Part shown: piece after piece, positions 9,189 through 32,964 of the stretch | Layout of the letters: each line of letters begins with the position of its first letter | Numbering within the stretch: the first letter of the stretch is position 1 | IMG/VR virus record: IMGVR_UViG_3300032315_000031 | Coordinates: 1 to 33,103 of that record | Source: a virus | Reading direction: 5' to 3' (one strand) | Length of the DNA stretch: 33,103 bases | Made by a program: the position numbers and the translations under genes | Notes under the pieces: generated by a model | The model's input: only the letters and a program-made list of their open reading frames with translations | What the model was told of the DNA's origin: nothing | Database searches by the model: none

Positions 9189-11777
9189 TTAACCTTTAAC
9201 GCGTAGTTCACCCCAACCAGAAGTATCCGCTTTAGATGAACCTGCGGGGGCTGTCTCTTTAAAAGCTTCAGGATAGTCTTTCTTATATCTCGCTTCAATT
9301 TCTCTGCGGGTTGTAGAGAGTTCACGCTCAATCTGTTCAATCTGCGGCTGATATTTTTTCTGAGTTTCTGTAGGCATTGATTTGAATCTATCAAGCTGTT
9401 TACGTTTTGCCTCAGTTTGATCTTTGTATGCTTTATCTATGGCTTGTTCAACCAAGCGCCTTTCTTTATCCGCTCTCGCTTCACCGCCACCACCAGTAGC
9501 AGCCGCACGTAGCGCCGCCGATTGAATACTAGCTTGTTTCTGCATTTCCGCAGAAGCCATTTGCGCGGCTGACGTTCTCTTATTCTCAAACTCATGCACT
9601 TGCAGTTTGCTAATATCTAAAGACAGCTTTGCGAGATTACCCTTGGCTTCTTGGTCAAGCTTATAAGCATCATCCACCCTGCCCTTTTTCTCCATGAGTG
9701 CGGCGCGGTCTAGATCATTTATGCTCTTGTTAATTTCTTTCTGGAGTGCACGAGCCTTGTCCTGATCTTCAATCAAATCAGGTATGGTGTTATTAATAGA
9801 CATAACCGCAGCCCTTAAAATCGGCCCGGGCGTTGAACCAAACTGAGCAAACATCTGTGCCCAACGCAAGTACTCAGCTTTCTTGGCGTCGCCCTGCGCC
9901 CGCTCCAAGGCTTTCTGTTGCTCAACCTTTTCATTCTGAATCATGGCGATTGGGTCAATCCCATACTTGTCATAGAGCTTTTGTTTACGCTCCATCTGAC
10001 CTTCTATACCTACATCCGCTTCTGTTTTAAAGCTTGTTTGCTGCGCTTTTAATTCTTCAAGCGCTTTATTTGGCTCCGCAGCAATCCGCTTGTACTCAGT
10101 TTGAAACGGACTAGTATCTACCGCTGGCTTAGGCGCAGCGGCTTTCGGACGTGAGGCAACCGGTGGGGCGGCTTTCTTAGGCGCTTCGTCTTTCTCTTTA
10201 AACGGATTGTCTACTTCGTCAACTTTATTACCTTCTTTAAATGCAACTATCCCGCCACTAGCCATACCACGCACTTTATCGCGGCGCTGCTTCTCAGCTT
10301 GAGCAATCCCTAATGTCTCAGGGTCAGTGTCTTGTGGGTTTGTTTTCTTCTTAAGCTGGTCATCAGACAGCTTCTTCATCATCCCCGGCAGTTTGTATGG
10401 GTCAACGCCTGACGCAATCCCGCCGCCAGCCATCTCTTTAATGTGCCCGCCTTCCGCTCTGCCGCCATAAGCGTTATACATATTAGCAGCGGCACCCATA
10501 AAACCGATGCCCTGTTGAAACATAGAGGGTTGTGCTTGGTACATCTGGGTAGATGACGCTTGCATCGGCAAGCCACGTAGCATGTTAGACAATGTGCCTA
10601 ACTGAATGAACGGGTATTGCTGCTCGGTAGCGTAATCTTGGATAATCTGGTTTAGACGCGCTTGCTCGTAGGCTTGTTGTTTTGCTCCTATGTCGTACTG
10701 TTGGCCCATTAAGCCCATTTCCTGCTGGTATTGCTGAGCGCCGAATTGACCTAGCTGCTGTGCGCCCCGCATTGCTTGATCGTAACTGCGTAACCCTAAC
10801 TCAGAGCCAAACTGACGCGACTGTTCTGAAGCTCGTTGGGCTTCTAGGCCATAACGCGCGGCGGTTTCCGCAGCGGTCATCTGTTGACCGTAGCCAAACT
10901 GACGAGCTTGCTCCCCTAACTGTTGTACACCCAACCGTGCGGCTAGGTTTTGCTGGCCTGTACCAAAGCCCATCTGCTGATTAGCCAATGATGCTTGTAG
11001 AGCGCGTTGTTGGTCGATTTGGAACTGCTGTGCGCCTTGCTCAAACGCTGCTTGTGATCCACGCGTCTGAATATCTTCCATCTGCTGACCTAGATTACGC
11101 TGGCGCTCGGCCTCAACCATTGCAGACCTTGATCCGCCAAACGCGCCTTGCTGCGCAGCCTGTGCTTGCTGTTGTTGACGCATGATTCCCGACTGACGCA
11201 GTGCTTCGCGCTTGCCGATATCTGTCACCGCTTGTTGGTACGGCGACATGTACTGCTGCATTACGTTAGGGTCGATGAACTTACCCGTGCTAACATTCTC
11301 CGGGCGCTCCATTTGGTACTGTTGCAGGTCGGACATGGAGTACTGTCCGGGGGCGCTATATTGAGAGTTAAATGAAGTTGGGTCATACTTACCCGCCCGC
11401 AGCGAACCCGTAATAGCTTGGTTTGTGTAATCAGAAGCAAGCCCCGTCTGTCCGGGTAGCTGATATCTTTGCAGGTTGCCCATTGCCTGCGCCTGCATAG
11501 GAGTAAAACCAGCTACTGTTTCGCCTGTGCCCGCGCCGTACTTTTCCTCCATCGCCGTCTTAAAAGACTTGTACGGTTGGAAACCAGTGGCCTTACCATC
11601 TTCAAAGTTAAATATTTGTCTTTCTGTAGCGCCCATCATCCGCTCAACATACGGTTGAGCGTACTCAGGAATATTTGAGGTCTGCGAATACGTGTAGTTA
11701 GGGCCGCCACCGCCCCCGCCCGGATAAACCCGACGACCGTCATTGCTGTAACCGTTAAACTTATTCCTGATAATCAT
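9189..11777 (-). CDS. Gln/Ala-rich internal virion protein
   Basis: An 862-residue protein with no enzyme motif. After an N-terminal Gly run (about residues 20-25), residues about 160-400 are extremely Gln-rich with heptad-like spacing and include GAFGGSRSAMVEAERQR, a motif I recall from internal or tail proteins of many phages. The middle carries Gly-Gly motifs (EMAGGGIASG, GMASGGIVAFKEG). The C-terminal third is charged and probably coiled coil. It lies directly before the 2118-residue polyvalent protein and after a possible GNAT-fold gene, matching the slot of T7 gp14/gp15 ejection proteins; that role is inference. The start ATG overlaps the upstream stop as ATGA, with AGGAAA as the ribosome binding site. 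Confidence 0.75.
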   Translation of the reverse strand: MIIRNKFNGYSNDGRRVYPGGGGGGPNYTYSQTSNIPEYAQPYVERMMGATERQIFNFEDGKATGFQPYKSFKTAMEEKYGAGTGETVAGFTPMQAQAMGNLQRYQLPGQTGLASDYTNQAITGSLRAGKYDPTSFNSQYSAPGQYSMSDLQQYQMERPENVSTGKFIDPNVMQQYMSPYQQAVTDIGKREALRQSGIMRQQQQAQAAQQGAFGGSRSAMVEAERQRNLGQQMEDIQTRGSQAAFEQGAQQFQIDQQRALQASLANQQMGFGTGQQNLAARLGVQQLGEQARQFGYGQQMTAAETAARYGLEAQRASEQSRQFGSELGLRSYDQAMRGAQQLGQFGAQQYQQEMGLMGQQYDIGAKQQAYEQARLNQIIQDYATEQQYPFIQLGTLSNMLRGLPMQASSTQMYQAQPSMFQQGIGFMGAAANMYNAYGGRAEGGHIKEMAGGGIASGVDPYKLPGMMKKLSDDQLKKKTNPQDTDPETLGIAQAEKQRRDKVRGMASGGIVAFKEGNKVDEVDNPFKEKDEAPKKAAPPVASRPKAAAPKPAVDTSPFQTEYKRIAAEPNKALEELKAQQTSFKTEADVGIEGQMERKQKLYDKYGIDPIAMIQNEKVEQQKALERAQGDAKKAEYLRWAQMFAQFGSTPGPILRAAVMSINNTIPDLIEDQDKARALQKEINKSINDLDRAALMEKKGRVDDAYKLDQEAKGNLAKLSLDISKLQVHEFENKRTSAAQMASAEMQKQASIQSAALRAAATGGGGEARADKERRLVEQAIDKAYKDQTEAKRKQLDRFKSMPTETQKKYQPQIEQIERELSTTRREIEARYKKDYPEAFKETAPAGSSKADTSGWGELRVKG

Positions 11778-12181
11778 AATTTTTTCCTCATTACCTGATG
11801 GGTTACTTCCAACCCAATCTTTTCGTACATCTGGACTATTGTTCCCTTAGCCCATAACTGCGCGACTGTAGCGCCGTGGGCTCTCATCCAGTTGTACAAC
11901 TCCTCAATGACGTGAGGCCGCACAATCGCTTTACCACCCATCAAATTACCGTGCGCAACGCGCTGCGTCGGGTAATCAATAATGTCTATCGCTGCTGCAC
12001 CTGTAATACCCTCACCCGGTTCTTCCCACACTACTAAGTAAGTACGCCCAGTACGAATAGCGTATTCAATCAGCTCAATCTTGTTTAAATCTGGATCAAG
12101 ATCAATCGCTCGCTGTAACAACGGTGCTGCTATAGGCCAAACTTGGGGTAACTCGTTAGGGTGTATCTGATATAAGGGCAT
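11774..12181 (-). CDS. GNAT-fold-like protein of the internal virion block
   Basis: A 135-residue protein. The pattern of an N-terminal helix pair (APLLQRAIDLDPDL), a strand ending YLVVWEEP, a central strand (GAAAIDII) and a late ATVAQLWAKGTIVQMYEKIGL segment resembles the GCN5-related acetyltransferase fold. The usual acetyl-CoA loop R/Q-x-x-G-x-G/A is not obvious, so catalysis is doubtful. Phages of this kind often carry a GNAT-like small gene between nozzle and internal core genes, comparable in size and place to T7 gp13 (internal virion protein A). That comparison is inference. It overlaps the next gene by ATGA, which suggests coupled translation. Confidence 0.6.
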   Translation of the reverse strand: MPLYQIHPNELPQVWPIAAPLLQRAIDLDPDLNKIELIEYAIRTGRTYLVVWEEPGEGITGAAAIDIIDYPTQRVAHGNLMGGKAIVRPHVIEELYNWMRAHGATVAQLWAKGTIVQMYEKIGLEVTHQVMRKKL

Positions 12182-12183
12182 AT

Positions 12184-13884
12184 TTACGCAGGCAGGTGTT
12201 TGTCAGCTTTACTATTAACTGCTACTTTCTTTTTACCGATACTCTTTCTGCGGGTGTTTTGAATCCGCTCCATCATCGCGTAAAGCTTTCTAGCCCCTGC
12301 TTCAGTTGAGCCATTGCCCAACTCAGAGACGATACGCGCTGGAATTACAAACTCACCATCAGCAAGACGAGCAGGCTGACGTTTACCAATGACAGCAGGA
12401 ATAGAATCCGAAACTCCATCGCCGGGGCCTCTCAAAAGTCGTCCACCATCGGAATAAGAACCCAAGTTACCCATGATGCCACCTTGCGCGGCCTCAATTG
12501 GGATGTCCATGTAGTTATCTATATCGCCAAGATTAGTCTTAGGCATTTCCGCTACGGGCACTTTGGATTTTTTAGCAAGTCGTGCGTATTCATCCATAGC
12601 AGCAGAGTATGGGCTGCTTAATTGTTGTTTTCTACTACGAGGAATAATTCCTTCGTCGAACTTTTTGCCAAGGGCTTCTACATCACTTAATTGCTTCTTA
12701 CGTTCTTTTTCCATTTCGTCATAGCTTTCCCCTATCCCTCGCAAAGCGCGTTGTTTGCGAGTCTTTAGCCCGTACTCTTTTGCATCTGCTTTTGAAATGC
12801 CGCCGGACGCCATACGTGGCTCTCCGGTATAACGCCCAACCGGAGCGTCTAACGCTTGGGGAATTACATTATTTGGCATTGGGCGCTGCACCATCGGGTT
12901 GCTATACATCGGCGTCTGGTACTGCGACTGCGGATACATAGTGTTGTCACCAATTGCATTTTCTGCGGACATCTGTTCAACGGGGCCACCTACTGCAAAC
13001 TTCTGATATTCGTAAGAACGCTCAAAAGGTTGAGGAGTAGCTACGCTAGGCTTAAACTTACTCATATCCACCATACTCTTGTATTCTTTCTTTTCTGGTG
13101 GCTTGGGTTTATTCATAAACTGCCCAGCGGTCATTAGTCCAATACCGGTTTGCAGTGGGTTATCTTGCGCATACTGCAACGCAGCCTCAAAGCCTCTCTC
13201 GAGCGCACTTTTTGGCGCTAAAGGAAATGCCGTTTCTTTCATCCCCATTAACTGCTCCGTTGGGGCTGACGCCATTTGTGATATACCTTTGTCAGACGCT
13301 GCCCTAGCAAGGGTGCCGGGATCGTTATATGGGGCTCCTCGCGGTAGGAAATTCTGTGTAAGTTCTGGTGGTGCGTTACCTAAACCAGCCGCGTCTTTAA
13401 ATGCCATTGGCGAGCTACCGGCAGGTGGGGGTGGAGCGGCAGGCGGAGCAGCAGGCGGAGCAGCAGGCGGAGCAACAGCCACAGGCGGAGCAGCAGGTGG
13501 GGGTGGGACAGCAGGTGGGGGTGGAGCAGCATAAGGAGGAATAGGTGTCGTAGTCGCAGGATTAAAATAAGCAGAAGGGCCGGCGCCTTGCATAATGCCT
13601 TGAGTACCTGCCTGCGTTGCGGCTTGCGTTGCGGCTTGCGTTGCGGCTTGTGTCCCCGCCTGAGTAGCAGCTTGTTGTATGCCAGCTTGTGCAGCCTTTT
13701 TCATAGCGGCTTGAATAGTAGCCTGTTTAGCTGCTTCTACTGCAGCGGTTTGAGCGGCAGCAGTCCCGGCAGCGGTAGCGGCGGTAGCGGCGGTAGCGGC
13801 GGGTATAGCGGCGGCAGTGGTAGCAGCAATAGCGGGTGCGGCGATAGCGGACTTAGCAATAGCAGCGGCGACAATTTGTGGCAT
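12184..13884 (-). CDS. Low-complexity Ala/Pro-rich virion protein with conserved DGEFVIPA C-terminal module
   Basis: A 566-residue protein. Residues 1-100 are almost only Ala, Thr, Gln and Gly; about 110-160 are Pro/Ala repeats. The middle holds Gly-Gly motifs (KFAVGGPVEQM, RMASGGISKADAKE, AQGGIMGNLG). The C-terminal 100 residues differ in character: GPGDGVSDSIPAVI, then LADGEFVIPARIVSELGNGS, then AGARKLYAMMERI. I recall this module at the C-terminus of structural proteins in many environmental phages; its function is not known to me. The gene sits in the internal-virion block between two small genes that may have GNAT folds. Its ribosome binding site GGGAGA lies inside the last codons of the preceding gene. 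Confidence 0.7.
   Translation of the reverse strand: MPQIVAAAIAKSAIAAPAIAATTAAAIPAATAATAATAAGTAAAQTAAVEAAKQATIQAAMKKAAQAGIQQAATQAGTQAATQAATQAATQAGTQGIMQGAGPSAYFNPATTTPIPPYAAPPPPAVPPPPAAPPVAVAPPAAPPAAPPAAPPPPAGSSPMAFKDAAGLGNAPPELTQNFLPRGAPYNDPGTLARAASDKGISQMASAPTEQLMGMKETAFPLAPKSALERGFEAALQYAQDNPLQTGIGLMTAGQFMNKPKPPEKKEYKSMVDMSKFKPSVATPQPFERSYEYQKFAVGGPVEQMSAENAIGDNTMYPQSQYQTPMYSNPMVQRPMPNNVIPQALDAPVGRYTGEPRMASGGISKADAKEYGLKTRKQRALRGIGESYDEMEKERKKQLSDVEALGKKFDEGIIPRSRKQQLSSPYSAAMDEYARLAKKSKVPVAEMPKTNLGDIDNYMDIPIEAAQGGIMGNLGSYSDGGRLLRGPGDGVSDSIPAVIGKRQPARLADGEFVIPARIVSELGNGSTEAGARKLYAMMERIQNTRRKSIGKKKVAVNSKADKHLPA
13437..13815. repeat. In-frame minisatellite tracts in the 566-residue protein gene
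   Basis: Three kinds of short direct repeat lie in this gene: GCAGGCGGAGCA-like 12-mers near 13437-13530 (encoding Pro-Pro-Ala runs), TTGCGTTGCGGC 12-mers near 13611-13652 (Ala-Thr-Gln-Ala), and AGCGGCGGT-like 9-mers near 13768-13815 (Ala-Thr-Ala). Unit lengths are multiples of three, so copy-number change would keep the frame. Confidence 0.8.
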
Positions 13885-13885
13885 G

Positions 13886-14191
13886 TCAAATCTCCCTCTT
13901 CATCAATACAAGCCCCATGTTTTGCCCGTACTGGTGTAAACCAAACATTTTGATAAGTTTTTGCGCCTTCTTATCATGTTCTAAAGGCGTTGCATAGACC
14001 TCATTGTACCCCTCAGCCTTTAACCCGGGGGCGACAACATTAGTAAAAATATTACGGTACCGCTTAAACTTAGAGGGCGACCACGCCCCCGTTTCTATAT
14101 TCAAATGCAACGCCACTTTTCCGATGTCAAGCATATAGTCACAGAGAAAAGTCACCTCTGCATCTTGGTAGAGAGTTCTGCGGGGGATCAT
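13886..14191 (-). CDS. Small GNAT-like protein of the internal virion block
   Basis: A 101-residue protein. The ending VYATPLEHDKKAQKLIKMFGLHQYGQNMGLVLMKR resembles the last strand-helix-strand of acetyltransferase folds (helix, then a GFxxYG-like turn), but the protein is too short for a full GNAT domain, and I see no acetyl-CoA loop. The start ATG at 14191 overlaps the upstream stop as ATGA. Its last codons (AGG GAG ATT TGA) form the ribosome binding site of the next gene. The family is uncertain; it could also be an unrelated small virion protein. Confidence 0.55.
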   Translation of the reverse strand: MIPRRTLYQDAEVTFLCDYMLDIGKVALHLNIETGAWSPSKFKRYRNIFTNVVAPGLKAEGYNEVYATPLEHDKKAQKLIKMFGLHQYGQNMGLVLMKREI

Positions 14192-14496
14192 ACTTTTATC
14201 TTCACCACGTTGCCCGCAGACGTGTCGTAGTACAGGTCGCCTATCCGTAAATTTGCCAGATCGGCTTGTGTTGGTAGGCTGACAATTCTAGCCTGCGTTA
14301 GCTGGTTCACGCTACTGTAGTTCTGGGCAGAAATAATGTCGGTTCCCACAATTTGCGTAGACCCTGAAGACGGCCCCGGATTATCCAACTGCTGAAAATA
14401 CTGGCGCAGGATGTTGTTAAGCGTGTCTTGATACTGGCGGTCGTATTGAACGGGAGCCAAGGGGAGTACAGGGGCTTTGGTTGTACCGGTAGACAT
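14188..14496 (-). CDS. Small conserved phage structural protein
   Basis: A 102-residue protein with a helix-forming middle (YQDTLNNILRQYFQQLDNPG) and a conserved-looking end (SLPTQADLANLRIGDLYYDT, then GNVVKIKV). I recall this combination in small genes next to nozzle-type genes of marine podovirus-like phages; the function is unknown. GGAAGGA upstream of the ATG is a good ribosome binding site. It lies 2 bases after the large nozzle-like gene and overlaps the next gene by ATGA. Confidence 0.65.
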   Translation of the reverse strand: MSTGTTKAPVLPLAPVQYDRQYQDTLNNILRQYFQQLDNPGPSSGSTQIVGTDIISAQNYSSVNQLTQARIVSLPTQADLANLRIGDLYYDTSAGNVVKIKV

Positions 14497-14498
14497 TC

Positions 14499-17093
14499 TT
14501 AGTTCCTTCCATCAGGACGCACGTCCATACGTGGCACGCCTAACTGCCACTGCGTACCTAGTCTGTTTGATGACACCCGCAAGGCCATCTGCCGCCCCCG
14601 CACTCGGGTGTAGATAATCTCCGTAAACTCCTGCACGTTGTAGCTGTTTTGTGTAGCGTACGTTTGTGGAGGGTCTCCCCCAGCGGAAACCGCAGCAAAC
14701 CTAGAGTTGTTGTAGGCAGCGCCGGGGTTTTGACGGGGGCGTAGCGTAAAAGTAGCCGTGGGGCGAGCGTCTTCCGAAGTGGAACCGCCCGTAAAAGACC
14801 CGTCAAAAGTTATGTCTGGCAGCATACGCCACACAAACCCGTAGTTGTGCCCGTCACCAATATCAAAGTCCGAAGACTGTACATACGAAACGATGGCTCT
14901 TTCACGTATCTGTGCGGCCTCTACATACCCATCATTTACATTATTTTCATGGAACACCACATAGTTGTCAGAGGTTGTGGCTTGGGGGAACTGACGAATT
15001 GGGCTGTCCAACCACGCAGTTCTATCTAATGAACCGTAGTACCAGACGCGGTCTAAGTAGTTAAAGATGACGTAGCGGTCTATAGTAGTGTTTGGATTTT
15101 CAACGGTGCCAGTACCATCTGCGCCTTCTATTGAACAGTAGAACCACCAAATTTCACTATAGCCTTCATTGCTGCCAGCGAAGAACTGCGCTTCTTGGTT
15201 TCTATTAATACTAGAGAATACAAATTGACGTACCGCGCAAGGCAGCGTCTCAATACGGCCTGAGTACACGTAGAACTTATCGGTGCCCATCCAGTACACA
15301 ACACCAGCAGCGGTAGCAATCGCATTTGGAGACGCAATCGATATGTTGTCGGCGAGCAGTGTGAAACCCCAGACCAGTGGTGGGCCTAGATACTGCATGG
15401 AGTAAACCGCTGCGTCGGTGAAGACAACAATTTCTTGACGTGTTTGCAGTGCCCCAATAATCTCTGACCCCCGTGAAAGCCGGAAACTACCTGCTTGGTT
15501 TAGCAGGCTTGGTGTCCAGTTCGTATAGCTTTCCTGCGCACTCCAGCGCACCAACAGGGGGTCTAGTGCTGTAGTACCGTATGCGCCGTAGTCGTTGCAA
15601 CCAAAGGCAATTACGATACGTGTCGAGTCCGACACCATGATCTGATTAATAGTGCTTGGGACATCAGTACCAGAAACGAGAGCGCCTCGCGTAGTAAACG
15701 CAGGGGTTGCACCTGCGCCCGGGTCCCACACATACAACGCGCCGCCACGTGGACTGAATAACAACTGTTCACCAAAGTTTGACTGGCTCCACAAACGCAA
15801 CTGCAAACCAAAGCCTGTAGTAAAACCTGAACCCCAACCACGACTTGCGCTTGCAATAAGAGAGGCATCTGGATAACCCACAGTAACATTAGAGCCACCA
15901 CCTGAACCAGTCGATGTAGCATTTACTGTAGGAGGGTAATTGCCGTTGGTAATAAAAGTAAACGTGTTTGCGTTAGTAACCGTTATTTCTACTGTGCGGT
16001 TAATAAGGTTTGTACTAAGCCCCCCAATCTCTAATAGCGAAGCAGTGCCTGTACCAGTACCCACGCCAGTAGCGGTAAAAACTGTACCAACGTTGTTATT
16101 AATTGCACCAATTAAAGTGAAGTTAGTCGATCCACTATTTGTAGAAATAATTTGATACTGCTTACCAATAACAAAAGACCCTGCCGTTACTGTTACTCCT
16201 ACAGCCCCACTAATAGACACATAGGCAATAGATGCAACTCCAGTTCCAGAACCTATGCCCGTAGCAGTAAATATAATCCCTACTGTATTGGCTGATGCCC
16301 CAATGGCTACGAAGTTTGTAGTCCCTACACTCACAATTTTGTATGAACGCCCAACAACAAATGACCCCGCATTGGTGTTATACCCATGTGCTGTTTGTGT
16401 CACTGTAACTACGTTGCTGCCGCTAGTCGTAGCTATTGGGTTTGCCCCTAACATAGCGACCAAGTATGGCGACCAAGGCCCTGCGCCCCAACCAGTTCCT
16501 TCGGTATAGATAGGTAGGCCAGTGTTAATTTGATATGCAATCGTTAGCCCCGTCATGGTGGAGCTAGATGCGGTGGTGTTGGCGGTAACCGAAAGCTGTA
16601 CTTGGTACCGTACACCAGAGAGGACGTTAACAATCTGGAACTCGTTATTCAGTACCGCTGCCGTGACGTTGCCGCCAAGCGTAGTAGCCCCCGCCAATGT
16701 AACGAAGTCGTTGACCTGTAATGAATCAGCGCCTGTGTCTGTAATCGTTAGTAGATTGGAGCCGTTAGTAACGGCAAGCGTGATCTGATTAGATGGGTTA
16801 GTGTTTGTCTCACGTAGGGGGGTGACATCAAAATACGCGCCGCCGTTCTCGACGTAGAATTTAAGATTGGTGCCAAGCCCGAGCAGGTTGTAGTTTTTTA
16901 GCGTTACCCAATTCCAAAGTGATCGGCACACGCCTAAGAATGTATTAGCAGACAGTGGCGACCAACCGCCAATCTTCTCAGGGTAGCCGGAGCGAAACCG
17001 CACCTTGTCGCAATCAAACCAACCGCCTTCGTTGGCAAGCGTTGTGCCCTCTCGGTTTACACCGGGGCGAAACTGTAGGTTCTGTAGTGGCAT
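14499..17093 (-). CDS. Tail nozzle/hub-like protein (tubular protein B type)
   Basis: An 864-residue protein beginning MPLQNLQFRPGVNREGT, then WFDCDKVRFRSGYPEKIGGW, a start I recall from the large conserved tail protein of many environmental podovirus-like phages, often compared to T7 gp12 or P22 gp10. Repeated strand patterns such as VYSMQYLGPPLVWGF suggest a beta-propeller-like body. Residues about 100-200 and 220-390 hold Ig-like beta domains; the second is interrupted by two tandem repeats at about 16030-16375. The protein should form the lower tail tube next to the portal (inferred). Its ATG follows AAGGGG. Confidence 0.75.
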   Translation of the reverse strand: MPLQNLQFRPGVNREGTTLANEGGWFDCDKVRFRSGYPEKIGGWSPLSANTFLGVCRSLWNWVTLKNYNLLGLGTNLKFYVENGGAYFDVTPLRETNTNPSNQITLAVTNGSNLLTITDTGADSLQVNDFVTLAGATTLGGNVTAAVLNNEFQIVNVLSGVRYQVQLSVTANTTASSSTMTGLTIAYQINTGLPIYTEGTGWGAGPWSPYLVAMLGANPIATTSGSNVVTVTQTAHGYNTNAGSFVVGRSYKIVSVGTTNFVAIGASANTVGIIFTATGIGSGTGVASIAYVSISGAVGVTVTAGSFVIGKQYQIISTNSGSTNFTLIGAINNNVGTVFTATGVGTGTGTASLLEIGGLSTNLINRTVEITVTNANTFTFITNGNYPPTVNATSTGSGGGSNVTVGYPDASLIASASRGWGSGFTTGFGLQLRLWSQSNFGEQLLFSPRGGALYVWDPGAGATPAFTTRGALVSGTDVPSTINQIMVSDSTRIVIAFGCNDYGAYGTTALDPLLVRWSAQESYTNWTPSLLNQAGSFRLSRGSEIIGALQTRQEIVVFTDAAVYSMQYLGPPLVWGFTLLADNISIASPNAIATAAGVVYWMGTDKFYVYSGRIETLPCAVRQFVFSSINRNQEAQFFAGSNEGYSEIWWFYCSIEGADGTGTVENPNTTIDRYVIFNYLDRVWYYGSLDRTAWLDSPIRQFPQATTSDNYVVFHENNVNDGYVEAAQIRERAIVSYVQSSDFDIGDGHNYGFVWRMLPDITFDGSFTGGSTSEDARPTATFTLRPRQNPGAAYNNSRFAAVSAGGDPPQTYATQNSYNVQEFTEIIYTRVRGRQMALRVSSNRLGTQWQLGVPRMDVRPDGRN
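16030..16375. repeat. Two tandem ~47-residue repeats nested in the nozzle-like gene
   Basis: Read on the - strand, the gene encodes two imperfect copies of SFVxGxxYxIxSxG(T/S)TNFxxIGAxxNxVGxxFTATGxGxGTGxAS (patterns, not identical). They sit between AHGYNTNAG and the strand NRTVEITVTNANTFTF, that is, within a beta domain which exists earlier in the same protein without such an insert. I recall this repeat from phage tail fibres. Confidence 0.75.
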
Positions 17094-17102
17094 CGTAGCC
17101 CC

Positions 17103-23736: not shown

Positions 23737-24073
23737 GGGTCACTCCAATGTTAGTTGCTGCTATCGCCGCCTCAAGTTCAGGATTACGCCAGTTGCACGA
23801 TGCCTCATCAAAGACCCACCCGTCGCCTTCTGGTTGCGGCGGTATGAAAGCATCACGGGTTTGATCGTAAACAAAACCAATACCAGCGTAGTTCTTGCGC
23901 TTGTTACCGTTGTAGCTGGTTTGCATCCAGATAGTGTCTTCGCCAAAAAGCTGTTTGCAGAACGCAATCCCTTTGGCTTCTGATTCTTGACCGTCTTGCA
24001 GCAACATCTCATTACCAACAACAATGACACGAAGGACGATGTTGTTTTCGTCTAGTTCAGCAAAATGAGCCAT
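23717..24073 (-). CDS. Conserved small tail protein (MAHFAELDENN family)
   Basis: A 118-residue protein. MAHFAELDENNIVLRVIVVGNE at the start, GIAFCKQLFGEDTIWMQTS, and RKNYAGIGFVYDQTRDAFIP form a pattern I recall from many cyanophage and other marine phage tail modules, with function unproven. The ATG at 24073 is preferred over an upstream start at 24088: GGAGG lies 9 bases before it and its A is shared with the stop TAA of the preceding gene. Confidence 0.75.
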   Translation of the reverse strand: MAHFAELDENNIVLRVIVVGNEMLLQDGQESEAKGIAFCKQLFGEDTIWMQTSYNGNKRKNYAGIGFVYDQTRDAFIPPQPEGDGWVFDEASCNWRNPELEAAIAATNIGVTRVEPSN

Positions 24074-25541: not shown

Positions 25542-25550
25542 TGCTGCTCC

Positions 25551-26018
25551 TTAAATAACTACCCAGCGTTGGCCGGACGACACCGTAACTGCAAAACCGG
25601 GTGCAATCGTAATCGGCCCCACTGATATAGCATTCTGACCTGATGGTAACGTGTAGCTGGTGTTTATTGTCGTGTTGTTAGTGATTATCGATTGATTCGC
25701 TGCACCCAACGCTGACCGCGCCGCTGGGTACGTCACAAACACATCCTTGGTTCCGGCAGAAAAATTGACTAGTGATCCAGCGTTGCTGGACGATAGAACC
25801 GTATCTCTAGACAGCGTATTGCCCGACGAGGTATACGTACCGATGCCCACTTCCCACTCAGTGCCGGTCTGCGCTGCAATAGTGTAATAGCAGGTGTTGG
25901 CGTTACCGATCCCTGCACTAAATGTCTGGAACCCCGTCACCGCACCCGCTAACGTAACCGGTCCAGTACTTGTCGTTGTCGTGGTCTCTTTGACCCTGTC
26001 TGCTTGAATAAGTGGCAT
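25551..26018 (-). CDS. Conserved phage tail-associated beta protein
   Basis: A 155-residue protein starting MPLIQADRVKETTTTT, with EVGIGTYTSSGNTLSRDTVL, SSSNAGSLVNFSAGTKDVFV and the end VSSGQRWVVI. I recall this layout, including the SRDTVLSSSN and GTKDVFVTYPA blocks, from many phages in the baseplate or fibre region. It may link a fibre to the tail; function is unproven. GGTGAG is the ribosome binding site. Confidence 0.72.
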   Translation of the reverse strand: MPLIQADRVKETTTTTSTGPVTLAGAVTGFQTFSAGIGNANTCYYTIAAQTGTEWEVGIGTYTSSGNTLSRDTVLSSSNAGSLVNFSAGTKDVFVTYPAARSALGAANQSIITNNTTINTSYTLPSGQNAISVGPITIAPGFAVTVSSGQRWVVI

Positions 26019-26025
26019 ATCTCAC

Positions 26026-27027: not shown

Positions 27028-27036
27028 GGAATCTCA

Positions 27037-27522
27037 TCAGGTGGTTACGAGGCGCAGCAGAGCAGTCGATGTGGTGTTCGACGGCATGGTCAAAGTAAAG
27101 GTGCCCGATGTCACGGTCTGCGCAGTAAATGTATGCACGCTAACTGCCTTATTGCTCTGAGTGCTGTTGTAGATCAGGACGCAGTCAAACGACGCAAACG
27201 TCACAGGGTTACCCGATGTGCCATACACAATCGACGCAGATGGAGTCCAGTAACCTGTACCCGCAGTTGCCGAAGTGTTGGTTGAAGTCGGTGGGTTAGC
27301 GCCTGTTACGTTCACGCCACCTGCCGTGTAGTTTGCGCTGGTCACTTCGCCGGTTGATGTATATACCGTAGTCGAAGCATTGATCGTAGCACTTGCCAAA
27401 TACAGCGCGGCCTTGAACGTATCAGCAGTACCTGCGGCACGGATGGGTGCAGTACCGAAGTTGTGGGTTGCAGTCATCAGTTCGCCAAGGAACGATGTGC
27501 ACATGGATTGGGTATTAGCCAT
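27037..27522 (-). CDS. Conserved tail-region structural protein, paralogue 1
   Basis: A 161-residue protein. FKAALYLASATINASTTVYT, then EVTSANYTAGGVNVTG, VLIYNSTQSNKAVSVHTF and TMPSNTTSTALLRL are blocks also found in the 143-residue gene at 27733-28164, so the two are paralogues. I recall this family from many environmental phages; the function is unknown, and position suggests a tail or decoration protein. TAAGGAG is a strong ribosome binding site. Confidence 0.72.
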   Translation of the reverse strand: MANTQSMCTSFLGELMTATHNFGTAPIRAAGTADTFKAALYLASATINASTTVYTSTGEVTSANYTAGGVNVTGANPPTSTNTSATAGTGYWTPSASIVYGTSGNPVTFASFDCVLIYNSTQSNKAVSVHTFTAQTVTSGTFTLTMPSNTTSTALLRLVTT

Positions 27523-27532
27523 TTAAAGCTCC

Positions 27533-27724
27533 TTAAAAAGATGCGGCGACCGGTAGGCCGCTAACTGTGTATTTCTTTAATACCATGTCAACCGAACGAT
27601 GCACTAGTTCTTCATCTAACCAATACTCCACCCAGTTGATCGTCTCATTGTCATTGTCGATGACGCCCGTCTTCTTTTCGAGAAGCGACTCATCCATTTC
27701 GCCTTTTGTGGTTTGAACAAGCAT
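27533..27724 (-). CDS. Small conserved phage protein
   Basis: A 63-residue acidic protein: MLVQTTKGEMDESLLEKKTG, then INWVEYWLDEELVHRSVDMV. It lies between the two paralogous structural genes. I recall the LVQTTKGEMDESLLEK start from the tail modules of several aquatic phages; its function is unknown. GGGG lies 4 bases before the ATG. Confidence 0.7.
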   Translation of the reverse strand: MLVQTTKGEMDESLLEKKTGVIDNDNETINWVEYWLDEELVHRSVDMVLKKYTVSGLPVAASF

Positions 27725-27732
27725 TTAGCCCC

Positions 27733-28164
27733 CTATGGAAAACGAATCAAAGCGGTTGTTGCGGTATTGGTTGGCATCGTGACGGTGTTAGTTACTGCCG
27801 TAAATGTTTTATCTGAACCAAAGTCCAGCACTGCTACAGACGCGTTGCTTCGCGTCACGTTATAGATTAAAGCCCCACGCGCTACAAAGTTAGCGCCGGG
27901 CCATGACACATCAGCAAAATCTACATACACCGTTCCAGCGTTCGGGCCTGTGGTTTCTGTGTTAATTGTCACGCCGGTCATCACCACGCCACCTGCGGTG
28001 TAGCCTGTACCTGTCACTTCGTTAGTCGTTGTGTACGTGGTTGTTAACTGTCCAATATCAGAAAACGCTGTATATAACGCCATCTTTAACGTGTCCGTTG
28101 CCAAGTTCTGCCCTGCTTGGAGCATCTCTTGTTTGAAGCTGTTTGTCAGACCTTGCTGGATCAT
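27733..28164 (-). CDS. Conserved tail-region structural protein, paralogue 2
   Basis: A 143-residue paralogue of the 161-residue gene at 27037-27522: LTNSFKQEMLQAG, TLKMALYTAFSDI, TYTTTNEVTGTGYTAGGVVM, ALIYNVTRSNASVAVLDFGS and TMPTNTATTALIRF align block by block. The ATG overlaps the stop of the adaptor gene as ATGA, so the two are probably translated together. Confidence 0.72.
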   Translation of the reverse strand: MIQQGLTNSFKQEMLQAGQNLATDTLKMALYTAFSDIGQLTTTYTTTNEVTGTGYTAGGVVMTGVTINTETTGPNAGTVYVDFADVSWPGANFVARGALIYNVTRSNASVAVLDFGSDKTFTAVTNTVTMPTNTATTALIRFP

Positions 28165-28880
28165 GGGTTGACCTTAATCTTTGCCTGACCATCACGGTAA
28201 GCATCACCACGCTCCAGACCTGTACCCAGACGATTCAATTGCATCATGGCTTCTTTGTACTTGCCGTCATATAGCGCAATCAAATCCTGCTCACCTTTTA
28301 AGAAGGTGTACGCCTCAACCAACGCGCCGTATAGCAGCACGGGTGAGTAGTTATCGCCCAGCCAAGTACGCCCGTTGTCAGCAACTGTGATTGACTCTGG
28401 GTAATAGTAATAATGCAGCTCAACTGCGTAGGTATCGTCCGGTGTTGGGCCAATAATAAAGCTCAGCTCATCCGTGATACTTGTATTAATAACTGTTGGG
28501 CCAAACAAGGCGTAGTACTTGGGAAACCCCTCGTTCGTTGGGCTTGGATACGCCGCACGAATAAAGTTCACATCCTTATTCAACAAATACTCGTAGTTAC
28601 CTGTACCGTCTATTACCGCCATCGAAAACACTGACAAGAAGTCGGTGGGGCAAGACAAGTACTTGTTACCTTGCTGGATGCTGCCGGTGACGTTCTTGCG
28701 CAGGGCAGGAATCTGAACGGTGTTGTACACCCGCTCTTCGGCTTGTTGGATGAAGAAGTTGAGCTGTTCTGTACCAGTAGACGTAGTGGTACCACTACCT
28801 GCGACATTCGTCCATGTATTAGACGGAAAATCGTTTTGCAGGTAGTTCTTTACCTGAATGAACAGTTCGTTGTACGTCAT
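28161..28880 (-). CDS. Head-tail adaptor protein (SU10 adaptor type)
   Basis: A 239-residue protein: an N-terminal helix (YNELFIQVKNYLQNDFPSNT), QLNFFIQQAEERVYNTVQIP, NKYLSCPTDFLSVFSMAVID, LHYYYYPESI, and a C-terminal helix pair (LLYGALVEAYTFLKGEQDLI...YKEAMMQLNRLG). This matches what I know of the phage adaptor family that binds below the portal and carries the tail. The role is family knowledge and fits its place between connector and fibre genes. Confidence 0.8.
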   Translation of the reverse strand: MTYNELFIQVKNYLQNDFPSNTWTNVAGSGTTTSTGTEQLNFFIQQAEERVYNTVQIPALRKNVTGSIQQGNKYLSCPTDFLSVFSMAVIDGTGNYEYLLNKDVNFIRAAYPSPTNEGFPKYYALFGPTVINTSITDELSFIIGPTPDDTYAVELHYYYYPESITVADNGRTWLGDNYSPVLLYGALVEAYTFLKGEQDLIALYDGKYKEAMMQLNRLGTGLERGDAYRDGQAKIKVNP

Positions 28881-28881
28881 A

Positions 28882-29145
28882 TCAACCCATCGGGCCTCGT
28901 GCCATTACGCCTTTAGTCGCAGCACCTGTGCCGCGAATTTTGATACCAGTTGTTTTTGCTTCTTTGTAGTTGCCTTTGCTAACTACACCACCAGCAATGT
29001 TCATCTCGTCCATGTATTTAGCGCCCTCGTTGCGGCTCGCATATGAGGTCACGTTGGTATCTTTACCCTCCATCGTGTGCGGTGGGGCATACACTTCTGC
29101 AGGGCCAACTTCTTTACCCTGCTTCTTCATAGAGTACTTAGCCAT
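28882..29145 (-). CDS. Small basic phage protein with IKIRGTGAATKGVMARGP ending
   Basis: An 87-residue protein, Lys/Gly-rich. Its end TTGIKIRGTGAATKGVMARG is a pattern I recall at the C-terminus of small connector-region proteins in marine phages. Function unknown. AGGGG lies before the ATG, and the ATG shares its first base with the stop of the 55-residue gene upstream. Confidence 0.72.
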   Translation of the reverse strand: MAKYSMKKQGKEVGPAEVYAPPHTMEGKDTNVTSYASRNEGAKYMDEMNIAGGVVSKGNYKEAKTTGIKIRGTGAATKGVMARGPMG

Positions 29146-29312
29146 TATTTACCCCTTGAGTTGCCACGCTGGTTCATAGCACGCGCCATGTTACGTCCAT
29201 ACTTCTTCATGGCTTCGCCGGTTACGCCGCCTTTAGCCATTTTTTTGGCTCCGTGCATACGCTTTTCATGTCCTTCGACTGCTTTGTCAGCTACTTTTTT
29301 CATGCTGTCCAT
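29145..29312 (-). CDS. 55-residue basic protein with KMAKGGVTGEAMKK motif
   Basis: Small gene between the zinc-ribbon gene and the 87-residue gene. The protein begins MDSMKKVADKAVEGHEKRMH and continues KMAKGGVTGEAMKKYGRNMA, ending NQRGNSRGK. GGAG lies 5 bases before the ATG at 29312, and the stop TAA shares its last base with the next ATG, both typical of the neighbours. It carries one of the Gly-Gly motifs found in other proteins of the late unit. Function unknown. Confidence 0.75.
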   Translation of the reverse strand: MDSMKKVADKAVEGHEKRMHGAKKMAKGGVTGEAMKKYGRNMARAMNQRGNSRGK

Positions 29313-29320
29313 AGTTACTC

Positions 29321-29728
29321 CTACGAGATTGTTACACTGCCTATCTGTGCAGGTGACGTTAAAGCATTCGGTGTCAACCCTACATCATCTGATCTTGAAC
29401 CACCTACCGGTGCCCATCCCCACTGAAATACTCTACTACCGCCTGACGGGTCACCAAAGTCTGTATTTAACGTCAACTGCAACCCTGTGTAGCCGGACTG
29501 CTTGTAGCTATTATCAGGGCGCGGTTCCCGTACTGCTTGGGGGTCTTGCACCGGGTACATACCTAACTGCAACTGCGGCTGATCCGGTTCCCAACACGTA
29601 GGGCACACCTTAATCGTAACCTGCTTGGTCTTGATCGTCAGCTTTTTTAACTCTTTTAGCTTGTAGCGAAACCCGCAGCGGTCACATTCTGCAATCGAGT
29701 TCTTACCACTAGCAAACCTATTACCCAT
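29321..29728 (-). CDS. Zinc-ribbon connector-region protein
   Basis: A 135-residue protein. Cys15-x2-Cys18 and Cys42-x2-Cys45 (ECDRCGF ... VCPTCWEPDQP) form a two-knuckle zinc ribbon. The rest is a Gly/Pro-rich beta segment. I recall this start (zinc ribbon followed by LG-x-PV-x-DPQAVR) from many environmental phages, in which it lies among connector genes; it may stabilise the head-tail joint, but this is inference. Its ATG forms TAATG with the stop of the preceding gene. Confidence 0.75.
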   Translation of the reverse strand: MGNRFASGKNSIAECDRCGFRYKLKELKKLTIKTKQVTIKVCPTCWEPDQPQLQLGMYPVQDPQAVREPRPDNSYKQSGYTGLQLTLNTDFGDPSGGSRVFQWGWAPVGGSRSDDVGLTPNALTSPAQIGSVTIS

Positions 29729-30468
29729 TAGAAAAACATCTCTCTCGGCACAAGCCGGTCAGCAGCCTTCTCGCGGTCTTCACCTGCCGCCAAGTCCCAA
29801 GCTTCGTCATACATCAACTTCAAGGCTTGAATCCGCATCGGGTCAACTTCTGCTTTCTTTACCGCAATCATATAAGCCAGCCCTGCTACCAAGCAATTCT
29901 GAAAGCGGAACGGTATATCAATCACGTTCGTGCCGGTACCGGCATCATAAATACGCTTTAACCGCCAGTAGTAAAACACGTAGTACGGGTTCTGGGTCGT
30001 GCCTTGATCCGGCGCAGGCCATACATTAATCTGTGGGTATTTCGGTACGGCTACGTTAGACCCGACTTGCTGCCCCGACTGACGGTTAATCCAGACCTGA
30101 ATCGGACGCCCTTGTGCCAGCTTGTTGGGGATAGTTGAGTAGGTCGAAACCGAAATACGAGTGATGTTCAAATCCGTCTGATTAGGGCCTTGTCCGGAAT
30201 CAGTGCGAATAACATGTTCAACCAGATCAACGGTATCATTAGGTAGATCATAGGTAGTCACTCCCTGCGCTAAGTTGATCGAACCCTGCTCAATAGTCCA
30301 CAGGTTAATGCCCCGGTTAGCCCACTCGCCAATCAGGAAGTTCAGACTACGCCGTGCTGTACGAAAATCATAGCCCGTACGCAACTCCAAGCCACAACGC
30401 TCAAACGCCTCTTCGAATATCTCGTTGAGGTCGGGATTAAAGCTAGTTGTGTTGGTTGTAAAGGCCAT
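29728..30468 (-). CDS. Head-tail connector/adaptor protein (tail tubular A-like)
   Basis: A 246-residue protein: LNEIFEEAFERCGLELRTGY, ARRSLNFLIGEWANRGINLW, VTTYDLPNDTVDLVEHVIRT, YYVFYYWRLKRIYD and a C-terminal helix bundle (FQNCLVAGLAYMIAVKKAE). This is a common adaptor of environmental podovirus-like phages, often labelled tail tubular protein A. It should form a ring under the portal. The second adaptor at 28161-28880 belongs to a related fold class. The ATG overlaps the previous stop as TAATG. Confidence 0.8.
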   Translation of the reverse strand: MAFTTNTTSFNPDLNEIFEEAFERCGLELRTGYDFRTARRSLNFLIGEWANRGINLWTIEQGSINLAQGVTTYDLPNDTVDLVEHVIRTDSGQGPNQTDLNITRISVSTYSTIPNKLAQGRPIQVWINRQSGQQVGSNVAVPKYPQINVWPAPDQGTTQNPYYVFYYWRLKRIYDAGTGTNVIDIPFRFQNCLVAGLAYMIAVKKAEVDPMRIQALKLMYDEAWDLAAGEDREKAADRLVPREMFF

Positions 30469-30701
30469 TACCTAAACCCCGCTGTCTTCTTCGCAATACT
30501 CTTGGGTTGTGCTACAAACTGCTTTCCCGCCTTCTTGCCCGCCCGCTTTGCTTTCGTCGTTGCTGCGTACTCCGCTGGGCTTAATGCTTTGATTGCCTTC
30601 TCCGGCAAGTACCTTTCGCCAGTCTTGGAGGATGGCTTCCCACTCTTTGTGCGCCATTTTTGATCCCCCCAGTTTTTAAGCGATTGTTGCGGAGCTTTCA
30701 A
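30468..30701 (-). CDS. Small basic protein (probable DUF5872), TTG start
   Basis: A 77-residue, very Lys-rich protein: LKNWGDQKWRTKSGKPSSKT, then GERYLPEKAIKALSPAEYAA. I recall this as DUF5872, found in phages and some giant viruses; the number is from memory. Its function is unknown; the charge suggests nucleic acid or capsid-interior contact. No ATG exists in the frame. The TTG at 30701 overlaps the stop of the previous gene as TTGA and has a GGGGG run upstream. Confidence 0.78.
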   Translation of the reverse strand: MKAPQQSLKNWGDQKWRTKSGKPSSKTGERYLPEKAIKALSPAEYAATTKAKRAGKKAGKQFVAQPKSIAKKTAGFR

Positions 30702-30973
30702 TCTTTATACCCCCCGCCTGCTGCCTTGTACTTCTTAGCCACCAACTGCGCTTTACGGGCTGACCACTGACCAGCACCTGTGCCATGCGTTGCTGCGGCC
30801 TTTACCTGAGACACAATCCTCTTACGCAACCCGGGCTTGGTGTAGTTACCAGCAGCATTAACCTTCCCACCTTCTTTATACTGCGTGAAGTCGGTGTTAT
30901 CCCGACGGGCTTTTTTCTTCCCGCCGGGCATCTTAGAAGGGTTAATCGCACCCATGCCGCGTGAGGTCATCAT
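30698..30973 (-). CDS. Small basic protein with GQWSARKAQLVAKKYKAAGGGY ending
   Basis: A 91-residue, Lys/Gly-rich protein. The ending AGQWSARKAQLVAKKYKAAG recurs in small phage proteins (possibly the family called DUF6321; name from memory). The middle has KEGGKVNAAGNYTKPGLRKR, one of the Gly-Gly motifs of this region. Its first two codons are both ATG; the first overlaps the previous stop as TAATG. Confidence 0.75.
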   Translation of the reverse strand: MMTSRGMGAINPSKMPGGKKKARRDNTDFTQYKEGGKVNAAGNYTKPGLRKRIVSQVKAAATHGTGAGQWSARKAQLVAKKYKAAGGGYKD

Positions 30974-31395
30974 TAGCAGTACCCGCCTTTTTTCATGTTT
31001 TTAGCGCCAGCCATCGACACTTGTCTAGCCTTGGTCTTGCCTTTAACAGCAACACCATCGGCTTGTTTGTGACCAGCAGCCAGACCGCCCGAAGCCATCT
31101 TCTTCATAGCCATACCACCTTTAGCCATCTTGCCCTTACCGTCAGCAGCAAAAGCTGGCACTTTCTGACCATCCTTCATGACCATAGGCATACCACCACC
31201 GGCGTAACCGCCCATTGCCATCTTCTTAACCTTACCGCCTTTTTTCATCATTGCCTTTGATTCTTTCATCTCACCGCCTCCTGATTTAGTGAACTCTTGT
31301 CCCACGGTTACAGGGACGCCGACCTTCTTTGCGAACTTCGGGTTATTCGCTACTGCTTGCATGAATCTTTCTTGCTTGGCAGATTTAGCTGGCAT
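30973..31395 (-). CDS. Small basic protein, MPAKSAKQERFM type, with five Gly-Gly motifs
   Basis: A 140-residue protein. The N-terminus MPAKSAKQERFMQAVANNPK with FAKKVGVP is a motif I recall from many phages. The rest is low complexity: MKKGGKV, KMAMGGYAGGG, KMAKGGMAM, KMASGGLAAG, NMKKGGYC. The ATG at 31395 overlaps the stop of the preceding gene (TGATG) and has AGGAAGG eight bases before it; the longer frame to 31401 starts at a weaker codon. It may be packaged in the capsid (inference). Confidence 0.75.
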   Translation of the reverse strand: MPAKSAKQERFMQAVANNPKFAKKVGVPVTVGQEFTKSGGGEMKESKAMMKKGGKVKKMAMGGYAGGGMPMVMKDGQKVPAFAADGKGKMAKGGMAMKKMASGGLAAGHKQADGVAVKGKTKARQVSMAGAKNMKKGGYC

Positions 31396-31934
31396 CAGCA
31401 AATCCTTCCTTTAGTCTTACCACGCTGGGCGATACCATCCGCGCGGTTAGAAGCCGAAGACACCTTACCGCCCTTCTTAAACTCTACGCCACGACTATCA
31501 ATCCCCATACGTTTGTTATCACGCATGGTTCTTTTAGGGTCTAGATCACTGCCAAGATTCATAGAATAAGGGTCTCTTAGACTAGAACCCGCCATTTTGC
31601 CAGCCCCACTAACAGAGGTTTTACTGGCACGTTCTTTACGATCCTGCTCAGACTTCCTCATGCCGCTAAGTGCTGCTGCCGCACCAAGAGCCACACCCGT
31701 ACCAGCAAGAGCCGCTGCCGTACCACGATTGGTTGGCTTTTTAGTTTCGCCCTCGTCCTCGTCCTTTTTACTAGCCGGACGCTCGGACTCATCAGGACCT
31801 TTATCTTTTTCTTTCAGCTTGGTGTTGTACTTCTCACCATTCCACTCAAAGCTCTTCTTGCCCTCTTTGCGGGCTTCGGCAAAGGCTTCTTTAAAAGTAG
31901 AGCCCTTGTCGTCGTAGTGTAGTTTCTCTTTCAT
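31395..31934 (-). CDS. Small charged protein with FKEAFAEARKEG start and shared C-terminal tag
   Basis: A 179-residue protein. Residues 13-40 (STFKEAFAEARKEGKKSFEW, then NGEKYNTKL) are a motif I recall from the N-terminus of small phage proteins. Then comes a Lys/Asp/Glu-rich linker, an Ala/Gly hydrophobic segment (about 72-95), and the C-terminal tag GGKVSSASNRADGIAQRGKT that the next two upstream genes also carry. Start at 31934: TAATG overlap, GGGAGA upstream. The hydrophobic segment could be a membrane helix or glycine zipper. Confidence 0.72.
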   Translation of the reverse strand: MKEKLHYDDKGSTFKEAFAEARKEGKKSFEWNGEKYNTKLKEKDKGPDESERPASKKDEDEGETKKPTNRGTAAALAGTGVALGAAAALSGMRKSEQDRKERASKTSVSGAGKMAGSSLRDPYSMNLGSDLDPKRTMRDNKRMGIDSRGVEFKKGGKVSSASNRADGIAQRGKTKGRIC

Positions 31935-32290
31935 TAGCAAATTCTCCCTTTGGTCTTGCCGCGCTGAGCAATGCCGTCAGCACGAGCCGACGCTGAACTA
32001 ACTTTGCCGCCAGATTTCATGCCGTTTCCTTTAGGTGGCAAACTTTTACGCGCTGCTTCGCCAACCGATTCTGCAAAACTTTTTTCTTTTTCTTTTTCTT
32101 TTTCTTTTTCTTTTACGGGCGGCTTTGAAGGCATTAGTTTTGCGCCAAGCCCAAGTAATGCTTCACGAACAGCTTTGCGCGGGGCTTCATTTTCCTCGCG
32201 TTCTTTTTTTAGCTGTTTCTCGTAAGCCTCGTTTTCTTTCTTTACAAGCGCGTCTCTACGAGCGTTTTCAATTTCATTTTCCATAGGCAT
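31934..32290 (-). CDS. Small coiled-coil protein with KE repeat and shared C-terminal tag
   Basis: A 118-residue protein. The first 50 residues are a Lys/Glu-rich helix (ENARRDALVKKENEAYEKQL), then comes a KE repeat encoded by a hexamer tract, then the tag GGKVSSASARADGIAQRGKT. The start codon shares a base with the preceding stop (TAATG), with GGGAGG before it. Function unknown; the charged helix could be a scaffold-like or capsid-interior protein. Confidence 0.72.
   Translation of the reverse strand: MPMENEIENARRDALVKKENEAYEKQLKKEREENEAPRKAVREALLGLGAKLMPSKPPVKEKEKEKEKEKSFAESVGEAARKSLPPKGNGMKSGGKVSSASARADGIAQRGKTKGRIC
32081..32114. repeat. Hexanucleotide microsatellite (TTTTTC)5TTTT
   Basis: On the + strand five exact TTTTTC units are followed by TTTT. 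On the coding (-) strand they encode alternating Lys-Glu in the 118-residue protein. The unit is six bases, so slippage would add or remove Lys-Glu pairs without a frameshift. Confidence 0.9.
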
Positions 32291-32964
32291 TACAGTACCC
32301 TCCCACGAGTCTTGCCACGCTGTGCGATACCATCAGCACGCTTGGACGCTGAACTTACCATTCCACCGCGCTTCATAATTGGGTTGCCCATAGTGTCGTA
32401 TTGAATCTCATCTGCTCCACGCTGCTTTTTCTTTTGTTCTTCACGATAGCGGCGCATGGAGTCTTGGGCTTTATCCAGACGTTCTTTAGTCAGGAATGTA
32501 TTCTTGGGACCCATACCACTTGTACTAAATTTAAAGTTACCTTGTGACCCAAGTTTTGCTGGCGCTTCGCCTGAAGTGTCTTGCGCAGCGGGAGTTACAT
32601 TCTTTGGCTTTTCAGACTTCGGTGTTGCTTTTTTAGGTTTTGGCGTAGGGTAGTTATCACTACGCATTACTGCTTCATCAGCGCCTTCTGGAATGAGTTC
32701 AGGGCGACCTTTCGACGCGGCCATAGCGCGTTTTTCTCCGGCGCTAATCGTCTTTGGTTCTTCCTTTGGCTCCGCTTTCGACTCTATAGCGGGGGCTTCT
32801 GCATCTTTCTTGCCGCTTCTGAACTCTTTGACTTTACGAGCGTAGTCGCTGTCGTCTTTGTCCTTATCTTTCAACTTCTTATACAAGTCGTAGCCAATCA
32901 TGCCTAGACCTATTCCGGTCAAGATGTCGCCACCACTAGCAAATTTTTTAGTTTTGCGTTTCAT
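32290..32964 (-). CDS. Lys-rich protein with N-terminal hydrophobic segment and shared C-terminal tag
   Basis: A 224-residue protein. It starts MKRKTKKFASGGDILTGIGL, where a Gly-Gly motif runs into a short hydrophobic stretch (about 12-28); then a Lys/Glu/Pro-rich disordered body, a helix (SMRRYREEQKKKQRG) and the tag RGGMVSSASKRADGIAQRGK. It is the first of three adjacent genes with this tag. The ATG lies three bases after the preceding stop, with no clear ribosome binding site, so it is probably translated by coupling. Confidence 0.72.
   Translation of the reverse strand: MKRKTKKFASGGDILTGIGLGMIGYDLYKKLKDKDKDDSDYARKVKEFRSGKKDAEAPAIESKAEPKEEPKTISAGEKRAMAASKGRPELIPEGADEAVMRSDNYPTPKPKKATPKSEKPKNVTPAAQDTSGEAPAKLGSQGNFKFSTSGMGPKNTFLTKERLDKAQDSMRRYREEQKKKQRGADEIQYDTMGNPIMKRGGMVSSASKRADGIAQRGKTRGRVL

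Follow-up and report, generated by a model that had tools for sequence, protein, structure and literature searches.

In the 33,103-base virus record IMGVR_UViG_3300032315_000031 (the window, i.e., the whole stretch of DNA analyzed here), three adjacent late genes encode proteins of 224, 118, and 181 amino acids (aa) that end in one shared peptide. A preliminary description made from the window alone had reported a short Gly-Gly (GG) motif recurring in two separated clusters of late proteins. All of the GG strings that it quoted are present on the minus strand, which carries the late genes, and the motif is real, but the description overlooked something larger: in these three proteins, GG forms just the start of a C-terminal unit of about 25 to 28 residues, here called the tag. 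The tag probably serves as an address label by which accessory proteins, largely disordered ones, are docked onto the virion.

In the window, the tag reads (M/F)-K-x-GG-x-V-SSAS-x-RADG(I/C)A-x-RGKT-(K/R)-G-(R/K)-x-x-COOH. It occupies positions 32293 to 32376 (MKRGGMVSSASKRADGIAQRGKTRGRVL) in the gene for the 224-aa protein (32290 to 32964), positions 31937 to 32020 (MKSGGKVSSASARADGIAQRGKTKGRIC) in that for the 118-aa protein (31934 to 32290), and positions 31398 to 31481 (FKKGGKVSSASNRADGIAQRGKTKGRIC) in that for the 181-aa protein (31395 to 31940); these and all other window coordinates below are on the minus strand. The parts of the three proteins ahead of the tag, their bodies, are mutually dissimilar (best BLASTP E value, 0.57). 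A degenerate DNA pattern for the tag core had three matches in the window and none in 100 shuffles. The body of the 224-aa protein is of the disordered type and the protein gave no match in PHROG or Pfam searches; it has an N-terminal GG copy in addition to its C-terminal one.

Distribution of the tag

Tag searches of viral contigs yielded 702 tagged open reading frames (ORFs), 617 of them distinct, at 238 loci. Markers of one capsid-adaptor module were present at all 238 loci, and where a locus held both the major capsid protein gene and the adaptor gene, 358 of 379 tags lay between the two. The tag matches in 14 records of 50 to 67 kb formed one compact cluster per record. For the ASCERTAINMENT control, loci were fetched via the capsid protein or the adaptor without use of the tag, and some of its contigs overlap the earlier set. 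At least one tag was found in 59 of the 63 control loci with capsid and adaptor genes, with 149 tags inside the interval and 9 outside it. Among the tagless control loci, L325 and L344 have degenerate GKT-type ends and L327 has GG motifs and no tag; L391 is probably uninformative, as no tag block is flanked by its capsid gene and the sequence called adaptor.

In a tree of capsid proteins, the tagged phages, including Planktothrix phage Pag-Yong1, formed a clade (Shimodaira-Hasegawa-like approximate likelihood ratio test [SH-aLRT] support, 99) separate from most untagged isolates. This is a quick version of the tree, and its three longest branches (L093, L094, and L095) are unreliable; the untagged record L093 sits inside the tagged clade on an artefactually long branch. 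The tag is nearly universal in the clade. A tblastn search of 50,697 phage records with a 28-aa window tag found no match at an E value of ≤10, a result for which masking could be ruled out as an explanation. Among 84,980 bacterial and archaeal genomes (GTDB), a single contig matched, and it was binned in a gammaproteobacterial metagenome-assembled genome. The phages that carry the tag are short-tailed and form a widespread group with almost no cultured members. A full-text search of the open-access literature for tag strings returned no paper; we found no earlier description of the tag, and the unit appears to be undescribed.

Conservation and position of the tag

Four residues, D, G, G, and T, never vary among 171 distinct tags. 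They were also kept in 81 of 81 tags from the set fetched without the tag, where the counting pattern itself required DG....GxT (satisfied by 150 of 153 proteins). The tagged ORF ends exactly 5 residues past GKT in 465 of 702 cases and 2 residues past it in 27; the corresponding numbers in the sample fetched without the tag were 88 and 13 of 150. Conservation is strongest downstream of GG, out to the C terminus, and short tags without GG exist.

Amino acid identity between tags was 0.705 within a genome and 0.702 between genomes, and codon identity at the conserved residues was 0.42 within and 0.40 between genomes, compared with 0.32 expected from codon usage. Near-invariance of D, G, G, and T together with near-saturation of synonymous codons means that it is the peptide that is under selection. 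The idea that one tag was recently duplicated or spread by gene conversion was rejected because codon identity within a genome about equals that between genomes. The tags are old peptides that have been separately maintained and not recent copies.

A single cysteine alternates between two places in the tag. Among 346 distinct tags, it stood after DG in 160, at the C-terminal site in 79, at both in 4, and at neither in 103 (Fisher P = 1e-21), and the set fetched without the tag gave 36, 23, 0, and 22 (P = 4e-8). These P values overstate the strength of the pattern because related sequences are not independent; the better evidence is that single body families contain both cysteine states. The bodies themselves lack any cysteine in 372 of 450 cases. 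The tag has a mean net charge of +5.2, and its DG[IC]AxRGKT stretch formally fits the Walker A P-loop pattern GxxxxGK[S/T].

Bodies of the tagged proteins

The 558 distinct bodies fell into 152 single-linkage clusters with 96 singletons, the largest cluster being artificially big owing to low complexity. Proteins with DUF6321 occurred both tagged (31) and untagged (136), with up to 96% body identity between the two states, and in the tagged ones the tag is attached directly after ...RAWNC. The tag is modular, and an existing protein may gain or lose it. By a charge-hydropathy rule, 82% of the bodies were disordered compared to 21% of controls. They are low in complexity and rich in Lys, Ala, and Gly, and Lys and Arg together make up 18% of their residues (12% in controls).

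Bodies consisting of membrane helices were considered and rejected, with hydrophobic segments in 4% versus 12% of controls. Enzymatic bodies were likewise rejected: the only Pfam matches among 113 tagged members were DUF6321, DUF6496, and DUF2188, and an enzyme-like tagged protein of 201 aa had no match in Pfam or the PDB. PHROG matches of tagged proteins were to 16759, to 22033 and 25121 (both virion structural protein), and to DUF6321-type families. AlphaFold models of two tagged proteins were of low confidence, with predicted local distance difference test (pLDDT) means of 53 to 54. That of the 181-aa protein averaged 54 and exceeded 70 only at residues ~16 to 40. No fold was predicted for the tag, with pLDDT at ~30 for a DUF6321 tag and ~50 for the 181-aa tag. 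A tagged protein of ~203 aa (L096, about 4606 to 5217) had no match in Pfam or PDB searches, and a homologue of it is embedded as residues 477 to 648 of an 825-aa protein (L250, 2558 to 5035).

The shorter GG motif

The pattern [FMY][AK]xGGx[AVILM] has 12 sites in 7 window proteins, whereas 0.7 were expected from residue shuffles and 1.3 from shuffles that keep glycine runs (500 shuffles each; maxima, 4 and 7). The recurrence that had been reported is thus above chance under a composition-matched null. The pattern was refined post hoc on data already seen, and therefore the test in relatives matters. Five near-complete relatives had 11, 14, 7, 5, and 2 matches against 1.2 to 1.5 expected, mainly in the tag cluster and in the homologues of the 566- and 862-aa proteins; G008 (2 matches) showed no enrichment, and G009 (5 matches) stayed inside its shuffle maximum. 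From these counts, the two-cluster pattern replicates in most relatives but not all. The earlier proposal that two clusters of otherwise dissimilar late proteins are linked by a conserved element is borne out, both clusters having GG in most relatives. Taken literally, the pattern first given finds 5 sites in 3 proteins (0.3 to 0.6 expected) but misses several of its own examples, and most protein sizes were as quoted, except that 140 aa should be 142 and 179 aa, counted from ATG, should be 181.

In the cluster distant from the tags, the 862-aa protein (9189 to 11777) contains GMASGGIVAF (10239 to 10268) and EMAGGGIAS (10410 to 10436), in a stretch where relatives have the gene split. In the window and in G008 this gene is a single ORF, but G001, G002, G003, and G009 have two genes in its place, which meet near the GG-rich stretch. 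The 566-aa protein (12184 to 13884) contains AQGGIMG (12469 to 12489), RMASGGIS (12793 to 12816), and KFAVGGPV (12979 to 13002), and its homologues from five of five relatives examined have a GG motif. Close to its C terminus (12250 to 12456) lies YSDGGRLLRGPGDGVSDSIPA...GARKLYAMMERIQNTR, with similar C-terminal ends on homologues in most relatives examined; this motif probably occurs in other phages too.

Nearer the tags, KMAKGGVT occurs in a 55-aa protein (29220 to 29243), QYKEGGKV in a 91-aa protein (30860 to 30883; PHROG 17747, some homologues also having the motif), FKKGGKV in the 181-aa protein, MKSGGKV in the 118-aa protein, and KFASGGDI at the N terminus of the 224-aa protein (32923 to 32946). 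This N-terminal form was found in 96 of 702 tagged proteins and in 1 of 328 controls. The 142-aa protein (30973 to 31401; PHROG 16759, with weaker matches to 22033 and 25121, "virion structural protein") has several GG motifs, a degenerate internal tag (KMASGGLAAGHKQADGVAVKGKTKARQV, 31018 to 31101), and MKKGGYC at its C terminus (30976 to 30996). Single proteins contain GG up to 7 to 11 times. A 449-aa protein of Caudoviricetes sp. MW202545 (L095, 4302 to 5651), encoded between capsid and adaptor genes, has ~11 GG motifs and no RADG tag.

Possible function of the tag

We put at about one-half the probability that the C-terminal ~25 to 28 residues are a modular tag for docking or virion incorporation. 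This reading is favored because the tag combines a fixed free C terminus and near-invariant residues with many different bodies and a strict place in the capsid module. During head assembly, a component of that module would recognize the free peptide K-GG-x-V-SSAS-x-RADG[I/C]A-x-RGKT-[K/R]-G-[R/K]-x-[C/V/L/I]-COOH, and several small, mostly disordered accessory proteins would thereby be attached to the particle or packed inside it. The shorter [K/R]-[F/M/Y]-x-x-GG-x-hydrophobic element, found at N termini, in the interior of the 142-aa protein, and in the 862- and 566-aa proteins, may be a weaker or related docking element. More tentatively, the system might be clade-wide, with one capsid-module receptor that reads the free C-terminal peptide with its alternately placed single cysteine, loads exchangeable disordered proteins, and also reads the shorter GG motif of the larger late proteins. 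Of the two shared functions suggested beforehand, docking to a common scaffold comes close to our best reading.

Several points weigh against docking. The presence of the tagged proteins in the virion, like the binding of the tag to a virion component, is predicted from sequence, and a literature search found no mass spectrometry of a tagged phage. The capsid-module partner is putative. The tag is basic, and therefore nucleic acid binding could explain part of the pattern. Lastly, the DUF6321 and 142-aa families also occur untagged or with only a degenerate tag, so the tag is not strictly required there.

Next in our ranking, and rather unlikely, is that the tag is a nucleic acid-binding tail on small internal proteins. 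These would either cover or compact the DNA packaged in the head or bind phage nucleic acid inside the cell. The charge of the tag, the Lys/Arg content of the bodies, and the formal resemblance of GxxxxGKT to a phosphate-binding loop are consistent with this. However, basic tails are usually loosely conserved, whereas the tag has an invariant acidic residue, fixed C-terminal spacing, and a single cysteine that alternates between two places, a combination better suited to a specific pocket. Behind it we place external decoration, in which the tag would anchor disordered proteins on the outer capsid surface in a hair-like fashion. The tagged genes do directly follow capsid and cement-type genes, and body content and number differ between phages, but the looser GG motif is shared by two neighbors of the 2118-aa protein, the 862- and 566-aa proteins, and that position would suit internal or ejected proteins.

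The other function suggested beforehand, a maturation protease site at GG-x, is improbable. In this scheme, a maturation or double-glycine protease would cut at GG and release or remove the tag, and it is true that GG is among the more conserved residues and that several relatives have the 862-aa protein divided between two genes close to its GG stretch. But conservation peaks downstream of GG, GG-less short tags exist, and GG is repeated too often within single proteins. A look for a prohead protease gene outside the window had been proposed as a check; 13 records of 50 to 67 kb had no match to the Mu-like, S78, S14/ClpP, or S49 families (the search did not extend to T4-type S77 or C39 peptidases or to unknown folds). 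With no known prohead protease found, docking is favored over cleavage. The simple alternative named at the outset, a bias toward glycine or low complexity that reflects no shared function, has the low-complexity, Lys/Ala/Gly-rich bodies in its favor but was rejected as very improbable: the motif is enriched over shuffles, as is the tag at the DNA level, and the near-invariant columns and fixed C-terminal spacing were replicated in the sample fetched without the tag.

If the docking reading is right, the tag would be a compact C-terminal address label for phage particle loading in a widespread uncultured phage group, and possibly a C-terminal counterpart of the phage T4 N-terminal targeting peptide that packages proteins into heads. 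Hundreds of small proteins that lack annotation would also gain a function in one step, with a virion location that is directly testable.

Comparison with known systems

The T4 capsid targeting sequence (CTS) directs internal proteins and Alt into the prohead (PMC5694885). Like the CTS, the tag is a short terminal peptide common to several dissimilar proteins of one phage. Unlike the CTS, which is N-terminal, 10 to 20 residues long, and removed by the protease gp21, the tag is C-terminal and ~25 residues long. No sequence relationship between the two is known, and of the elements described here, just the short GG motif is also seen at N termini. Because the tag is not N-terminal and no prohead protease was detected in the family search described above (Mu-like_Pro, S78, S14, and S49), we do not class it as a CTS; by analogy, the best reading is that it would work like the T4 CTS in function without being a member of it.

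Other virion-carried proteins differ further. The crAss001 cargo proteins (gp45 and others) and the P22 and T7 ejection proteins are recruited during assembly, some of them portal bound (PMC10172136), but they are large and mainly helical, with no described shared terminal tag. Phage P1 DarA and Hdf are accessory head proteins on the inner capsid (PMC12810830) that use folded binding domains; a shared short C-terminal tag is not described there. Double-glycine leaders of C39 substrates are N-terminal, whereas the tag GG lies ~25 residues from the C terminus with conservation after it. As for the Walker A P-loop NTPases, the tag has the loop sequence and not the alpha/beta fold and following helix, since the protein usually stops five residues after GKT and AlphaFold gave no fold.

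Podoviruses of the HTVC023P/CRP-901 type (Pelagibacter and Roseobacter phages) are the nearest isolates by portal, capsid, and adaptor; their genes run in the same order, and small basic genes sit at a place comparable to the tag cluster. None was found with the RADGIAQRGKT tag; loose GG motifs occur in some, and the capsid proteins of this group lie outside the tagged clade. The only isolate-type records found with the tag are those of Pag-Yong1 (deposited also as MinM2 and Pra-JY27), whose capsid protein is in the tagged clade and whose 308-aa protein, encoded between capsid and adaptor, ends in RYASGGMIGRDGCAKRGRTKGRFI. Pag-Yong1 differs in having a single tagged protein, of variant sequence and annotated as hypothetical. 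Three phage records, OQ594354, OL906435, and PP438419, bear different cyanobacterial host names. All three are 65,014 bases long and match a shared set of queries identically; they may therefore represent a single phage, whose host is possibly a companion bacterium.

Gene setting and a second module

In relatives, the gene order is TerL, portal, GroES-like, scaffold-like, p150, p230, major capsid protein (PHROG 371), cement-type proteins, DUF6321, tagged genes, homologues of the 142-, 91-, and 77-aa proteins, adaptor, and tail. The window stops within the capsid-to-adaptor block, and its capsid genes therefore lie outside the record. The tail-side boundary of the tag cluster is the 246-aa tail adaptor (29728 to 30468), which is followed on the minus strand by a 239-aa protein, tail genes, and then the 864-, 566-, 862-, and 2118-aa proteins; the plus strand carries a DUF927 gene. 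By portal and adaptor, the closest isolates are HTVC023P, HTVC027P, CRP-901/902, DSL-LC04, and Pag-Yong1, mostly at 30 to 45% identity. Sequence searches of the PDB with the capsid protein and the adaptor found no match.

The 181-aa protein also contains a second short module (FKEAFAEARKEGKKSFEWNGEKYNT, 31821 to 31895), predicted to form a helix and two strands. Its consensus, FxxAFxxARxxGxxxFxWxGKxYxT, recurs in L253 (2472 to 2765) and L255 (5010 to 5510). The module terminates a small microvirus protein that we read as M15 peptidase-like, stands at the start of gp34 of the T7-like phage RHEph01, and matches a crAss-like tail lysozyme. In the scanned loci, 27 of the 29 proteins with this module were also tagged.

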